64,000 bases of DNA from Treponema sp. Its GTDB lineage: Bacteria > Spirochaetota > Spirochaetia > Treponematales > Treponemataceae. The notes under the pieces are model-generated. The model was given only the letters and a program-made list of their open reading frames with translations, searched no databases and was not told where the DNA came from. Positions 4,545 to 29,321 of this stretch are shown here, piece after piece; within the stretch, counting starts at the first letter, position 1, and each line of letters starts with the position of its first letter. A program made the position numbers and the translations under genes. Where the stretch lies: assembly GCA_024693715.1 (NCBI GenBank), contig JAILKS010000042.1:1-64000 (forward strand), in the 5' to 3' direction.

Positions 4545-7500
4545 ATGCACATTTCATACAACGAATTTCATATATCAAAAAAGGTTCGTGACCTTTGCAG
4601 CTTTGAAGAGGGGCTTTTTGCTTCGAGCGGAAATGTTGTCTTTGCTAACATGAGAAACGTCCGTAACTTTCAACTGCTTTATAATAATTTCATTGACACT
4701 GTTACCGGTGATGAAAACAAACGAGTAAGTGCCGGCCAGCTCAATGCAATGGGTTTGATTGATGAAATTCTCCACTATGTGTGCATGCTTTACCGCAGAA
4801 ATAAAGTTCCGGACTTTATGACAAATCTTCTTTCAGAACTTGATAAACAATATACTAGAAATGAAATTGACTCACTTCTTATTGATTTTATAAATGAATT
4901 TCCTCCTGTTGAGGTTTATAAAGAAAAATGCAGTGCCCGCGAATATCTTTCACGCAAGGCACTTGATATAGGAACCGGAGAAGAACGTTCTAACCGAGAA
5001 CAGACCCTCGAAGAACTCATTCTTCTTCATCTTGCAAACGAAAACGCAGCCTTCAAGCCGTTCCTTCTGCTTTTTGGAGACACAGAACTTGCAAAAAACA
5101 AGCTTTACGGTAAAACCTGGACAAGCATAAAAAAATTTGCAAAAGCACAGCCAACCTTCGGACCATTTGACCATGACCTTATAAATCTTCTTAAGGAACC
5201 TCAGGCCTTTGCACCTGACAGCCTTAAGGGTCAGCTTGAATATATCCAGAAATACTGGGCCGAGTTCCTTGGTGAATGGCTCAAGCGAATCTTAGCCGGA
5301 ATGGACACAATCAGCGAAGAAGAAAAGGCTGCCTGGCATGGCTTTGGTGGCGGCGACCTTCCTGATATGTCTGCCTACACCTTTGAAAACCTGATGAACG
5401 AATACGAGCGCTACAGCCCGGACTCAGACTGGATGCCAAAGGTAATCTTAATTGCAAAAACAGTTCTTGTATGGCTGGACCAGCTTACAAAGCAGTACGG
5501 CTACCCTATCACACGCCTCGACCAGATTCCGGACCCTGAACTTGACAAGCTTCGTGATGAAGGTTTTACAGGACTTTGGCTCATAGGACTATGGGAACGT
5601 TCTAAGGCAAGCCGACGAATCAAGCAGATTTGCGGAAACCCTGAAGCAGCTGCAAGTGCCTACTCTCTTTATGATTACAACATTGCACAGAACATCGGTG
5701 GCTGGGACGCACTTGCAAACCTTCGAACCCGCTTATGGCAGAGAGGAATCCGTCTTGCTTCTGACATGGTTCCAAACCATACAGGTATGGACGGCGACTG
5801 GGTTATCAACCGGCCGAATCTTTTTATTCAGCGACGCGACTGTCCTTTTCCGCATTACACCTTCAACGGCGAAAACCTTTCTCAGGACGAAAGAGTTTCT
5901 CTTTATCTTGAAGATCACTACTACAGCAAAAATGACTGCTCTGTAGTTTTCAAGCGCGTTGATAATCAGACAGGTGATACACGCTATATTTACCACGGAA
6001 ACGACGGTACAGGTCTTCCTTGGAATGACACCGCACAGATAGACTTTTTGAACGCTGAAGCACGCGAAGCTGTAATGCAGGAAATCTTGCATGTTGCACA
6101 AAACTTCCCTATTATCCGTTTTGATGCCGCAATGGTACTTGCTAAAAAATCAATCCGACGTTTGTGGTACCCGGAGCCTGGACACGGAGGTGATATTGCA
6201 ACCCGAAGTGAAACAGGACTGAGCACTCAGCAGTTCAATGATGCAATCCCGAATGAATTCTGGAGAGAGGTTGTAGATCGTGTTACACGCGAATGCCCTG
6301 ATACCCTTTTACTCGCAGAGGCCTTCTGGATGATGGAAGGATATTTTGTGCGAACGCTTGGAATGCATCGAGTATACAACTCCGCCTTCATGAACATGCT
6401 CAAGAAAGAAGAGAATCAGAAATACCGCGAAACTGTTAAAAATACTATCACCTTTGATCCGCAGGTTTTGAAGCGATATGTGAACTTTATGAACAACCCC
6501 GACGAAGAAACTGCAATTGCCCAGTTTGGTGACGGTGATAAATATTTTGGTGTATGTACCTTAATGATTACAATGCCGGGACTTCCAATGTTTGGTCATG
6601 GTCAGATAGAAGGCTTTACCGAAAAATACGGAATGGAATATACCAGAGCCTATAAAGATGAACAGCCGAATCAATATCTTGTTGACCGACACTGGCGTGA
6701 AATTTTTCCGCTCATGAAAAAACGGTACCTGTTCAGCGGAGTAGAAAATTTCTTATTCTATGATTTATGGCAGGATGGGACAGTAAATGAAAACGTATTT
6801 GCCTATTCGAACGGGTGCGGAAATGAAAGAACCTTTGTAGTTTACAACAACAAGTATGACAGGGCATACGGATGGATAAAACAATCCGACCCATATGCAG
6901 TAAAAACAGGCAATGGGGATGAAACAACACTCACCTCACGCTCAATTTCTGAAGGTCTCAACCTTAATGCTGAAGATGATAAATACTGTATTTTCCGTGA
7001 AAACCGCAGCAACTTATGGTTTATTAGAAAAAGCAGTGAAATCTGCGAAAAGGGTCTTTTCGTAATGCTCAACGGTTTTGAGTATCAGGTTTATATGGAT
7101 GTTCATCAGGTAACAGACGAAGCAGACCATCGCTATAAACTTTTATGTGATTTTCTGAATGGAAACGGCTGTGAGGATATTGAAACTGCATGGCAGGAAA
7201 TTATTTACAAAGAGCTTTATACTGCAATGAAAGCATATATAGACAAAGTTCTACCATGTGTTTTCCCAGAAATAAAATCAATAGATAAAACATTTGCTTC
7301 AGCTCAAAAGGAAATAAAGAAATTCAATGATGAATGCTCAAAAATTCTAAAAACAAAAACAACTCCTGAAGCATTTACAAAAAGTGTTGTTTCAAAATTA
7401 AAACTTCTTTCTAAAATTCAAAAAGAAAAATCAATGAAAAAACCTGCCGATTTACAAAAGGCACTTAAAAAATGCACTACAAAAAATGCTTTTGCAAAGC

Positions 7501-24433: not shown

Positions 24434-26266
24434 CTAATTCGAACTGTTTCTGGAAAGAAAATATATAGAAGAAACAACTAAAGCCGCAATATAAACTCCA
24501 ATTCCAACAAACAGACTGCCCATGCCGCCTACAAGTGCAATGAGGACGTAATTAAACAGTTTGAACATCCACACATAAAACTGATAAAGGAACATCTGTG
24601 TTATGATGAAGAACGGAAATGCAAGGAACCAGCTGAATTTAAAATATCCGCTGTCGCTAATCCTGTTATTCCATGCAAAGGATGCAAGAAGAATTAAAAT
24701 CATAAGGATAAACAACGGATAAAGAAGCCTGTTGAGCATGGCCTGTCCGAAAATCTCCTGAGAATAACCGAAGCGTTTTGCTTTTGAAGAGATTTTTACA
24801 AGTTCAAGAATAGATGAACTTTTAATGTCATCTCCTGAGTTTTCTACAAGGATGAAATCAGAAAAATCCATAGGGAAAATAATATAATCTTTATCTTCGC
24901 CATTCTGACCTTTTGCATATGTATATTCAGGTGAATAAACTACGTCAGGATCTTCACGACCAACAGATTTTAAAAGGATATACGGGACACATTCAATTTT
25001 ATCATCAATTTCCAGAAGATCTTTTGTTTCCTTTGGAAGCGATTCTACAAAAACAGGAATTACCTTGGCATAAGCAACATGCATTGCCTTTACCCACTCT
25101 CCGCTGCCGGTGAAAGTAAGGATTGTTAAATCACGAAGATACTGAACATTACTTCCGGAATCCTGAACTTCTGTCATTCCTTTAAAATATACGATATTCT
25201 TATTGCCCATTTTTCTCTGATGAACAAAATAAACGTCATTTGCTTTTTCAAAACTCTTTAGCTCGAAAGTTTCATCTACAAAGAAATATTTTTCTTCAAC
25301 TCTTTTTTGTGCAACATCGTAATAAAAATTTACATCACTGTCTTTTTTACCCTGAGATGTTTCCATTAAATTCTTAAAAAGATAATATGCCTGTAAATCA
25401 TCACCCTGAGCAAGTGCAATATAACCTTTGTATTTTTCATCAAACAGCATCTGTTCTTCTGTCTTTGATTTTTTGTGAACCTCTGTAAGATTATTCCATG
25501 CGTTTACAGAAATATCCCTTAAGCTTTCATAATTAGGATCTTTTTTAGCATTAATCTTAAGTCCAAGTTCAGCATAATAATGCGCATCAAACCATTGTTC
25601 ACTATCATAAGCTTTTTTTGCCTTCTGATAATATTCGTAAGATTGTGATAATTCCTCTGCATCAAATGGTTTTTCAATTTTTTTATCTTCGACCGGTTCT
25701 GAAGTTTTAGGATTAAAACGCAAATCCTTTGAACTTTCTCTGCTGACTTCGATGCTGGCTTTATTTTTGAGTTCATTTGCTTCCTGTGATTTTGGATCCA
25801 GTTCCAGGGCAGCCTGTGCATATTTTACAGCACGCTGGAAATATTTTTTGTTATAAAATTCATTTCCAACCTTGATATATTCATTTACGATTTTTGGTCT
25901 ATTTAAAATCTGATTTTTCTTTGATTCTGCTATTATTCCTAACGATTCATTTCCAAGAGTAATGAAAAATGTACAGATGATGGAAACAATCATTACTGAT
26001 TTATATCGCTTCACCATTGCTGATGAAAAACGCATGAAGCTTCCTTCAGAGCTTGAACCGAACTGAACGGAAAATCCGACTATAAAGGCTGTAAGCATCA
26101 TCCCTGGGAAAAATATGAGGATATATTTTACAGCACTGCATAATTTATATAAAAATTGTGAAGATTTATAAATCTGAGGAGGAACAGGAATACAAAGTGC
26201 CGTTATAAAACATGCAATTATTCCTATTACGAAAAATGCAATTAAAATTGATATAACCTTTTTCAT
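24434..26266 (-). CDS. TPR-containing integral membrane protein, hypothetical
   Basis: N- and C-terminal TM segments flanking TPR-like repeats (VGNEFYNKKYFQRAVKYAQAALELDPKSQEA). Confidence 0.7.
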   Translation of the reverse strand: MKKVISILIAFFVIGIIACFITALCIPVPPQIYKSSQFLYKLCSAVKYILIFFPGMMLTAFIVGFSVQFGSSSEGSFMRFSSAMVKRYKSVMIVSIICTFFITLGNESLGIIAESKKNQILNRPKIVNEYIKVGNEFYNKKYFQRAVKYAQAALELDPKSQEANELKNKASIEVSRESSKDLRFNPKTSEPVEDKKIEKPFDAEELSQSYEYYQKAKKAYDSEQWFDAHYYAELGLKINAKKDPNYESLRDISVNAWNNLTEVHKKSKTEEQMLFDEKYKGYIALAQGDDLQAYYLFKNLMETSQGKKDSDVNFYYDVAQKRVEEKYFFVDETFELKSFEKANDVYFVHQRKMGNKNIVYFKGMTEVQDSGSNVQYLRDLTILTFTGSGEWVKAMHVAYAKVIPVFVESLPKETKDLLEIDDKIECVPYILLKSVGREDPDVVYSPEYTYAKGQNGEDKDYIIFPMDFSDFILVENSGDDIKSSSILELVKISSKAKRFGYSQEIFGQAMLNRLLYPLFILMILILLASFAWNNRISDSGYFKFSWFLAFPFFIITQMFLYQFYVWMFKLFNYVLIALVGGMGSLFVGIGVYIAALVVSSIYFLSRNSSN

Positions 26267-27225
26267 TATTCATCCCTCTTATAACTTACAAAGAATTTAA
26301 TTATACCGGTAACAATAAATATTAAGCTGAACAAAAGATTAAGACAAACAACAGGCACATCATCAAAATAGTTCTGAAGCGGTACAAAGAGTTTAAAACC
26401 TTCAAGCTTTGTTCTGAATTCCAGAAGTTTTGGTAATGAATAAAAAGTATTTATACCGATTGCCATAATTACAGAAAAGCATACAGCCCAGGCATTTAAA
26501 AGACGCCATTTGAAAAAGTTCGAAATTCCGTAAATTGAACAGATTAAAAGTGCAAGAGACAGGAATCCGAACCAGAATGTTTTACCCTTTTGTAAAGCCG
26601 ATGAAGCCTTTAATATCAACGGTCTGAAGCTGATAAACGATATTCCGCCATCTTCATAAAATGCTTTTTTGATTATTACATCATTGTAAGGCTTTGCCGC
26701 ATTAACAAGAAGTTCATCATCGCCCTTCTGAAGCTGTTTAACTTTAAGTCCACCGTCATCCTCTGTATCAATAAAAATGCCAGGCAATTTTTTTTCGACA
26801 GCAGAATCAAAATCATCTGTAAAATAAAAAATCCTATTTTCTGCTTTTCTGAAAAGACCGCCTGACAAGGTTTTAGTTTCTGTAAGTACAGGCGAAAAAG
26901 CATTGATTTTTGAACCGTATTTTAATGCAGCCGGAAAAAGAAAAATCCATGTAACTGCACAAAGAAGAAGATATGTTAATAATTGTAAAAATCCACCTTT
27001 ATGTCTTATTCTTGAATATGCCAGGAACGGACAAATCAAAAATATACTTATAATGCTCATATAAAAGAAGGATTTAGACATTATCTGCTTTGAAAATAAA
27101 ACAATCTCTTTCCCGTCAACATAATTCAGGACACTCAGATAAAGAGAATAAAAAAGTGTTCCGCAGAGTAAAAGAACGAATAAAGTTGCGAAATAAAAAA
27201 CAATCAATTTTAAGGCTTTTTTCAT
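26266..27225 (-). CDS. Integral membrane protein, hypothetical; coupled to 24434-26266
   Basis: Multiple hydrophobic segments; RBS AGAGGA; 1-bp overlap with next gene. Confidence 0.7.
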   Translation of the reverse strand: MKKALKLIVFYFATLFVLLLCGTLFYSLYLSVLNYVDGKEIVLFSKQIMSKSFFYMSIISIFLICPFLAYSRIRHKGGFLQLLTYLLLCAVTWIFLFPAALKYGSKINAFSPVLTETKTLSGGLFRKAENRIFYFTDDFDSAVEKKLPGIFIDTEDDGGLKVKQLQKGDDELLVNAAKPYNDVIIKKAFYEDGGISFISFRPLILKASSALQKGKTFWFGFLSLALLICSIYGISNFFKWRLLNAWAVCFSVIMAIGINTFYSLPKLLEFRTKLEGFKLFVPLQNYFDDVPVVCLNLLFSLIFIVTGIIKFFVSYKRDE

Positions 27226-27400: not shown

Positions 27401-27952
27401 ATGGATAATAATAACGCATTAGTGCCAGGTTTCGATTCAGAAAAAGATGACAGTCTGACAATCAATCTCAGAAAAGCAGAAAACGTTAAAAACGGTCTCT
27501 TTATTTATTTAAGCGGATACATTGATACATACAATTCCAGTTATTTTCAGAAGAAGGTTTCACAGATAATTGAAACAGGTTTCATTAATTTAATATTCAA
27601 CTGCTCCTCTTTAAACTACGTTTCCTCTACTGGTATTGGATCGTTCACAGTTTTCCTTAAAATGGTAAAACCAAAGGGCGGTGACATTGTTCTTCTTGAA
27701 ATACAACCAAAGGTATACGAAGTATTCCAGTTACTTGGATTTTCACAATTCTTCAATATTAAAAGTTCTGCCGATGAAGCTATTTCTTTCTTTTCTGAAG
27801 GAACTGTTGCAGCTTCTTCTATTTTCCCGCTTGTTATTTCATGTCCTGTATGCTCAAAAAAATTGAGAGCTATGCGTTCAGGAAGATTCCGATGTTCAGG
27901 ATGCAAATCTATTCTTGCAATTAACGAAAACGGTGAGGTTTCACTCGGTTAA
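27401..27952 (+). CDS. STAS-domain protein (anti-sigma-factor-antagonist-like) with C-terminal zinc ribbon
   Basis: GLFIYLSGYIDTYNSSYFQKKVSQII...FNCSSLNYVSSTGIGSF (STAS); CPVCSKKLRAMRSGRFRCSGC (two CxxC). Confidence 0.8.
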   Translation: MDNNNALVPGFDSEKDDSLTINLRKAENVKNGLFIYLSGYIDTYNSSYFQKKVSQIIETGFINLIFNCSSLNYVSSTGIGSFTVFLKMVKPKGGDIVLLEIQPKVYEVFQLLGFSQFFNIKSSADEAISFFSEGTVAASSIFPLVISCPVCSKKLRAMRSGRFRCSGCKSILAINENGEVSLG

Positions 27953-27956
27953 TAAT

Positions 27957-28233
27957 TGCGGATAACTTGTGGATAACTTAAAAAAACAGTATTTTTTTAA
28001 AACTTTTTTCAAAAAAATACTTGACATAGTTTTACAATAAATAGGTGAAAAACAATTGATTTTTCACCTATTTTTTTATATTACAAGGAATTACACGATT
28101 CTCTATAATAATTACAAATTTATACTAAAAGTAGAATTCTAGTTTTTCATATAAAAACACCTCATTTTTGACTAAAAAAATGTGGATAACTTGTGGATAT
28201 TCTGTGAATTAATGTGGAAATATATGTGTATAA
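27957..28233. promoter_or_regulatory. Cluster of DnaA-box-like 9-mers (candidate oriC or DnaA titration/regulatory site)
   Basis: TGCGGATAA 27957, TGTGGATAA 27968, TGTGGATAA 28181, TGTGGATAT 28192, TGTGAATTA 28203, TGTGGAAAT 28213, TGTGTATAA 28225; all same orientation, 10-12 bp apart within each group. Confidence 0.65.
28039..28080. terminator. Low-GC hairpin followed by T-run, probable terminator of the STAS gene
   Basis: 14-bp perfect stem AAATAGGTGAAAAA (28039-28052)/TTTTTCACCTATTT (28060-28073), loop CAATTGA, then T-rich tract. Confidence 0.65.
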
Positions 28234-28239
28234 GTGAAT

Positions 28240-28268
28240 TTGTCTTTTTTTCTGATTTTCATTATAAT
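28240..28268 (+). promoter_or_regulatory. Predicted promoter TTGTCT-17-TATAAT, 6 nt before ATG 28275
   Basis: TTGTCT 28240-28245, TATAAT 28263-28268, ATG 28275, no Shine-Dalgarno. Confidence 0.55.
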
Positions 28269-28274
28269 TAAGAT

Positions 28275-29321
28275 ATGGAAAATATTTTTGCGGCAAGACT
28301 TGAAAAAATTGAAAAAGCTCTTACAAAAGCACTCGACATAAATTATACAAATGACTGGCAGGAAGCTTCCTTCGGTAATCTTTCACAAAGCGTTAAGAAA
28401 GAACACATAAAAGCCTTAATAGAACCAAATAAAGCTCTTATAAATCTTGGCGGAAAAAGATGGCGTCCTTTATTTTTAATTTTATGCTATGAAACAGCTG
28501 CTGCAAAAAATAAAAGCACTGCACTAACTGAACAGCAGGCTTATGATCTTACATCCTTAGTTGAATTTGCACATACAGCAAGCCTCATTCACGATGACAT
28601 AGAAGATTCTGCAGATTTCAGGCGAGGACAACCGGCAGTACATATAAAGTACGGAATTGATACCGCCATAAACAGTGCGGACTGGCTGTATCTTCAGGCT
28701 CCTGTCTGCATAGATACAATGGATATTCCCACAGATATAAAGCTTACTTTTTATGAACTTTATACAAAGGAAATGAGAAAGCTTCTTTTAGGTCAGGCAA
28801 TGGATATAAGCTGGCATTCAGATACAGAGTTCTATCCTAAAATAGAAGCATACAACGCTATGGTAAAATGTAAAACCGGAACTCTTGCAAGCCTTGCCTG
28901 TCAGATTGGACTTATTGCAGGCGGTGAATCTAAAGAAATTGCATGGAGATTCGGCGAAGTTGCCTCAAATATCGGAATAGGTTTTCAGATTATAGATGAT
29001 ATAGTTAATCTTACAAAAGGAAATCCCGGTAAAAAACGAGGTGATGATATCGTTGAAGGAAAGAAAAGTCTTCCTGTTTTGCTTCACATAAAGAATAATC
29101 CGCAGGATAAATCTAAAATCTCACAGTTATTCAAAAGAGCAAAGACAGAAGGAATAGAAAGCAGTGCAGTTGAAGAATGCATTGATTTATTAAGCAAAAG
29201 CGGTTGTCTTGAACAGGCTTTAATTTTAGGTAAACAGCTGATTACAGAAAACTGTGCATTATTCGAGACTTCACCTTTAATCTCAAATTTATTTTCTTCA
29301 ATGCTTCCAGAGGATTTGTAA
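28275..29321 (+). CDS. Polyprenyl synthetase family protein
   Basis: LGGKRWRPLF, SLIHDDIEDSADFRRGQPAVH, IGFQIIDDIVNLTKGNPGKKRGDDIVEGKKSLP. Confidence 0.9.
   Translation: MENIFAARLEKIEKALTKALDINYTNDWQEASFGNLSQSVKKEHIKALIEPNKALINLGGKRWRPLFLILCYETAAAKNKSTALTEQQAYDLTSLVEFAHTASLIHDDIEDSADFRRGQPAVHIKYGIDTAINSADWLYLQAPVCIDTMDIPTDIKLTFYELYTKEMRKLLLGQAMDISWHSDTEFYPKIEAYNAMVKCKTGTLASLACQIGLIAGGESKEIAWRFGEVASNIGIGFQIIDDIVNLTKGNPGKKRGDDIVEGKKSLPVLLHIKNNPQDKSKISQLFKRAKTEGIESSAVEECIDLLSKSGCLEQALILGKQLITENCALFETSPLISNLFSSMLPEDL

Follow-up and report, generated by a model that had tools for sequence, protein, structure and literature searches.

The 322-bp intergene at positions 27953-28274 of a Treponema contig carries a conserved arrangement of DnaA boxes that we think rather likely to be an origin-distal, DnaA-binding control element, ancient in the Treponemataceae and acting like datA, DARS or a Bacillus subtilis cluster. 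Judging from sequence comparisons, such an element would probably help to set the timing of replication initiation. Among the genomes compared, two groups of same-orientation boxes phased at 11 bp are held at a near-constant distance around a 25-bp palindrome, and this arrangement is independent of the neighboring genes and lies inside a replichore. The same palindrome is common to the element, to oriC and to a locus with DnaA boxes and parS sites. The window, the whole stretch of DNA analysed here, consists of the first 64,000 of the 67,077 bases of contig C29, in a genome of 2.63 Mb in 81 contigs, and the named relatives of its genes are from Treponema, T. bryantii among them. Genome-wide statements below rest on genome searches and sampled stretches. 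The features are as follows; the boxes come from the sequence and a pattern scan, and the one at 28213 from the sequence.

27401..27952, plus strand: STAS-domain protein (anti-sigma factor antagonist family; PF01740, TIGR00377), the conserved upstream neighbor
27957..27976, minus strand: box group 1, two DnaA boxes 11 bp apart (TTATCCACAAGTTATCCGCA), tandem pair and AG linker kept in relatives
start 27957, minus strand: DnaA box of group 1, TTATCCGCA, 1 mismatch
start 27968, minus strand: DnaA box of group 1, TTATCCACA, exact
28039..28073, plus strand: intrinsic terminator of the STAS gene (terminator match, T run after it), outside the conserved element
28069..28093, no strand: central 25-bp palindrome (TATTTTTTTATATTACAAGGAATTA), left arm eroded in the window species, PWM score 25.8
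28181..28189, minus strand: DnaA box of group 2, TTATCCACA, exact
28192..28200, minus strand: DnaA box of group 2, ATATCCACA, 1 mismatch
28203..28211, minus strand: DnaA box of group 2, TAATTCACA, 1 mismatch
28213..28221, minus strand: DnaA box of group 2, ATTTCCACA, 2 mismatches, the weakest of the seven
28225..28233, minus strand: DnaA box of group 2, TTATACACA, exact
28240..28268, plus strand: promoter-like TTGTCT-17-TATAAT of the downstream gene, outside the box array, aligned in relatives of the ispA clade
28275..29321, plus strand: polyprenyl (isoprenyl) diphosphate synthase (PF00348), the variable downstream neighbor

A preliminary description of this DNA had listed seven same-orientation DnaA-like 9-mers between 27957 and 28233, and they are all there: each reads TTATNCACA on the minus strand, three exactly, three with one mismatch and one (28213) with two. 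The start spacings are also as first given, 11 bp in group 1 and 11, 11, 10 and 12 bp in group 2, and the gene orientations do change from minus to plus and back to minus around the site, as had been reported. The intergene holds 6 sites at up to 1 mismatch, versus a mean of 0.75 and a maximum of 5 in 2000 dinucleotide shuffles, and 3 exact sites, versus a maximum of 1 in the same number of shuffles; no other 322-bp stretch of the window approaches its box count. Throughout this genome, tandem pairs like TTATCCACAAGTTATCCACA (at most 2 mismatches) occur only in the element, which has two, and at the parS locus, which has one. While right about the boxes, the description overlooked that a palindrome lies at 28069-28093 and that the groups keep a near-constant spacing in relatives. 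The 14-bp hairpin that it placed between the groups exists, at 28039-28073, yet it matches an intrinsic terminator and is followed by a T run. Many relatives have a comparable hairpin and T run between the STAS stop codon and group 1, and the hairpin of the window is thus not part of the conserved element.

In many relatives, the gap corresponding to that between the STAS and polyprenyl synthase genes bears the same boxes, and the boxes are conserved across genera as well; a lack of such conservation had been named as evidence against the initial interpretation. The element tracks the STAS gene, not the synthase: at least two same-strand boxes lie 3' of STAS in about 77 of 91 distinct loci of the genus, and a few of the negatives among the rest reflect contig ends or spurious ORFs. 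Lineages that branch deepest in the STAS tree carry it as well. One clade truly lacks the element after STAS (G093, G159, G089, G038, G020, G023, G099, G191, G013 and G164), and in other genera it was found in about 11-12 of 18 loci, from ten genera in all, while being absent in some genera. Hence, it is not essential everywhere. The strict two-group pattern was retrieved from 61 of the 196 genomes of the genus, and the reversed control pattern from one. Compared with near relatives, the box columns of the window mostly show higher conservation than other positions of the intergene (82% versus 50% for L218), with L032 as an exception. We also observed that the divergent membrane-protein gene at 26266-27225 (minus strand) is 36% identical to the gene found directly after the element in other lineages, which points to a local rearrangement in the clade of the window.

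The geometry of the groups is strikingly regular. Across 71 intergenes we counted 366 boxes, versus 55 expected from shuffles, and their same-strand spacing peaks sharply at 11 bp (114 pairs), then at 21-22, 32-33 and 43 bp. The 2-nt linker between boxes spaced by 11 bp is AG in 68 of the 114 pairs. The DnaA of Escherichia coli favors pairs of boxes with gaps of 2-3 bp (PMC11317965), which is the box spacing of the Treponema element. The spacer between the groups is A+T-rich (mean 76% A+T). Taken alone, the distance from group to group gives an R of about 0.44 for helical phasing, or 0.27 with distinct distances, which is suggestive only. The distance from the palindrome to group 2 falls at 87-91, 98-105, 110-113 or 121 bp in 50 of 51 loci, in classes one box step apart (R=0.71; this and the other phasing statistics treat related genomes as independent and are uncorrected for phylogeny). 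Outside the element, phasing is missing: the STAS-to-group-1 and group-2-to-next-gene distances give an R of 0.12-0.16. The 11-bp steps may result in part from the loss of single boxes out of a fixed register. Under either explanation of these steps, the comparison of loci indicates that spacing is constrained while sequence drifts.

The palindrome was found by reading the spacers side by side and has a consensus of about TAATTCyTTrTATTATAArGAATTA. A motif search allowing one site per spacer gave a mean score of 22.7, versus at most 8.5 on shuffled spacers, and about 54 of 56 loci have a good match midway between the groups, centered at a median of 104 bp past group 1 and 101 bp ahead of group 2. 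This midpoint layout recurs in other genera (g19, g3, g9, g10 and g7), and the copy of the window is the sole PWM match of at least 14 in the 64 kb. The arm positions do not covary, and conservation falls on equivalent positions of the two arms, as for a site bound by a protein dimer rather than a hairpin; this suggests that the palindrome is such a predicted dimer site. In spacers of the T. bryantii clade (e.g., L036, L040, L041 and L202), the stretch from the palindrome to group 2 contains a second, lineage-limited motif, CTATTGACAyGTCATTTTGAC with TTTTCGTAAATTTTCGTA repeats.

The palindrome also marks two loci around the origin. As first noted, the window lacks a dnaA gene: the sole PF00308 match of the assembly is on contig C44, where the only dnaA gene of the genome occupies C44:209-1591, with DnaA boxes at C44:129-196. 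The dnaA-dnaN gap bears DnaA boxes of its own, and relatives have box sets after dnaA. In most genomes examined, a copy of the palindrome lies mostly 90-130 bp (about 110 bp) past the dnaA stop codon; 21 of 27 such loci beat all 60 shuffles, with a mean best score of 14.0 versus -4.2, and the window species has a weak copy (score 11). Further along C44 the order is dnaA, gyrB, gyrA, a phased DnaA-box pair (6600-6619) and four parS sites (6638-6843), which places this pair and its parS array (C44:6600-6843, L292) just past gyrA and about 5 kb from dnaA. The palindrome at C44:6326, inside a longer near-perfect inverted repeat, adjoins this locus. Several relatives have a similar layout, and in many genomes the palindrome adjoins the locus of DnaA boxes and parS sites. 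In 1.5 Mb of sampled sequence there are 12 palindrome matches scoring at least 18, five of them at oriC, the gyrA/parS locus or the STAS element; the background in sampled genome stretches is about 5 other matches of this strength per Mb.

Could the boxes regulate a neighboring gene? DnaA is a known transcription factor, group 2 stands just 5' of the promoter-like site of the downstream gene, and other phased pairs in relatives stand before genes. DnaA or another factor on the boxes could thus control the polyprenyl synthase or STAS gene here. However, the downstream gene varies: it is a polyprenyl synthase in 28 loci, a membrane protein of about 320 amino acids, homologous to the product of the divergent gene at 26266-27225, in 32 loci, and elsewhere IGPD/hisB, lon, recG or a gene of pfkB type, of the SDR family or resembling glycosyl hydrolases. 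In eight loci the downstream neighbor is convergent (L200, L211, L213, L216, L253, L255, L258 and L308), and all of them keep both groups. In at least three lineages (L037/L260/L277, L307 and L320/L326/L341), the entire array points the other way, and STAS often has its own terminator ahead of group 1. The varied neighbor, the convergent loci and the inverted arrays argue against a promoter operator, the boxes not being tied to one conserved target promoter as downstream gene and orientation vary, and we consider gene regulation unlikely. An operator of the polyprenyl synthase in particular was rejected, as the neighbor changes and the array inverts. Among the other phased pairs, some precede genes identified by eye as ribonucleotide reductase-like (MKIIKRNGEEV...) and replicative helicase-like (MLKDKVPPHNAEAE...), in L439 and L451 (G099, G146) and L446 (G122); these form a possible DnaA regulon.

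A chromosomal origin separated from dnaA, one of two readings offered in the preliminary description, or a second active origin, could account for the DnaA boxes, the A+T-rich spacer and the palindrome shared with oriC. Yet the GC skew, which had been proposed as a check, stays below zero left and right of the site through the window, and it crosses the homologous element in G004 (400-kb contig), G122 and G080 (closed or near-closed) without changing sign. In relatives it changes sign at dnaA-dnaN instead (at 42-44 kb in G034 and at about 278 kb in G042), where the gap bears boxes and a parS array lies beyond gyrBA. DnaA-trio-like runs of TAG/TAA trimers adjoining the arrays are in no excess over shuffles, and the element has no DnaA-trio unwinding region. 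An origin is therefore highly improbable, and we rejected it. A dif-like recombination site, judged by eye, was set aside too, the skew showing no terminus at the element. An anchor for chromosome organisation or segregation, using DnaA and the putative palindrome-binding protein rather than regulating initiation timing, has in its favor that palindrome and phased boxes also adjoin the parS array and that 20 of 91 regions (e.g., L004, L006, L196, L197 and L208) show an enrichment, close to group 1, of GTGAAACA repeats resembling parS half-sites. Against it, there are no TGTTTCACGTGAAACA-like parS sites near the STAS element, the half-sites are absent beside it in the window species, and the element lies 0.3-0.9 Mb from dnaA (about 0.29-0.86 Mb) in closed or near-closed genomes. 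Such an anchor seems to us a minor possibility, about as improbable as gene regulation, and a parS site or centromere proper was rejected, since the element has no site and half-sites occur in some relatives only. The conserved sequence could finally be an RNA feature (terminator or small RNA) with incidental box matches, given the strong terminator hairpin between the groups in the window. This is very hard to reconcile with the lack of any Rfam match at gathering strength (there are only sub-threshold chance matches), the different placement of the terminator in most relatives, the lack of covariation in the palindrome arms and box numbers several-fold above shuffles.

These comparisons strengthen the other reading initially offered, a regulatory element like datA or DARS, which fits the comparative evidence; membership in datA or DARS themselves is left unestablished. 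Detail on origin-distal DnaA-control loci comes mainly from E. coli, and clusters have also been described in B. subtilis. The datA locus promotes the hydrolysis of DnaA-ATP, its deletion leads to over-initiation, and an IHF site between its DnaA boxes is needed for activity. The DARS core consists of three DnaA boxes promoting ADP release, and DARS2 has IHF and Fis sites. Clusters of the Bacillus type are intergenic, lie outside oriC and are bound by DnaA in vivo. In E. coli, datA lies inside a replichore away from the origin, encodes no protein, is conserved among relatives and combines several DnaA boxes with an IHF site (PMC5295017, PMC4585315). The Treponema element is likewise non-coding and origin-distal, with several DnaA boxes, conserved among relatives and inside a replichore. 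Each has a site for a second protein, that of the DNA-bending IHF in datA and, as predicted, the palindrome in Treponema. They differ in that the Treponema element arranges its boxes in two same-orientation arrays with 11-bp steps, about 210 bp from each other, and its palindrome is probably not of the IHF type. DARS1 and DARS2 of E. coli are also origin-distal and non-coding, with DnaA boxes and accessory-protein sites, but by layout the two same-orientation arrays and the palindrome have no obvious resemblance to the DARS core. In B. subtilis, the joint deletion of DnaA-box clusters outside oriC leads to early initiation (Okumura 2012, as reported in PMC5295017). The Treponema element shares with these, as far as that account goes, a cluster of DnaA boxes outside oriC, intergenic and tested here against shuffles, but it is one fixed-layout element with a palindrome common to oriC. 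The oriC of the same genus, in the dnaA-dnaN gap, likewise combines DnaA boxes with a copy of the palindrome, some 110 bp past dnaA; it differs in its geometry and in that the GC skew flips there. We suggest that datA, DARS and the B. subtilis clusters may be the closest functional parallels (PMC5295017, PMC4585315). A lexical literature search found no report of a DnaA-box cluster in Treponema, an absence that is no proof of novelty, and searches for spirochaete origins yielded genome papers and work on the DnaA of Borrelia.

How could an origin-distal control element of this layout work? The tandem boxes would be occupied by DnaA in cooperative dimers or oligomers, and the palindrome by a dimeric protein. 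By bending or bridging the DNA, this protein could allow the two DnaA arrays, some ten helical turns away on each side, to meet. The resulting complex might alter the amount or state of free DnaA once the replication fork duplicates the locus. We lean somewhat towards a negative effect, by titration or possibly ATP hydrolysis, over the reactivation of DnaA. Counting against a control element are its absence after STAS from one clade and some other genera, the eroded left arm and weak oriC copy of the palindrome in the window species, and the chance that box loss made part of the 11-bp steps. A bolder proposal, to which we give a little less than even chances, is that an undescribed dimeric regulator recognises origins in the Treponemataceae; its palindrome would mark oriC, the gyrA/parS locus and the STAS element, where it would loop the two DnaA arrays to control initiation, a new architecture with a new partner. 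An element found across the family, rigid in geometry and sharing its palindrome with oriC, would extend origin-distal DnaA control to the spirochaetes, a phylum for which we found no report of it, and would point to a new origin-binding protein that a defined 25-bp bait could retrieve. The element is one deletable intergene without an obvious coding role, which makes for a clean test. Near-identical palindromes, TAAGTCTTTATATTrTAATGACTTA, are present in intergenes of two genomes, mostly without DnaA boxes close by (L303:2126, L364:13897, L362:2304 and L376:649); these are maybe further targets of the putative palindrome-binding protein.
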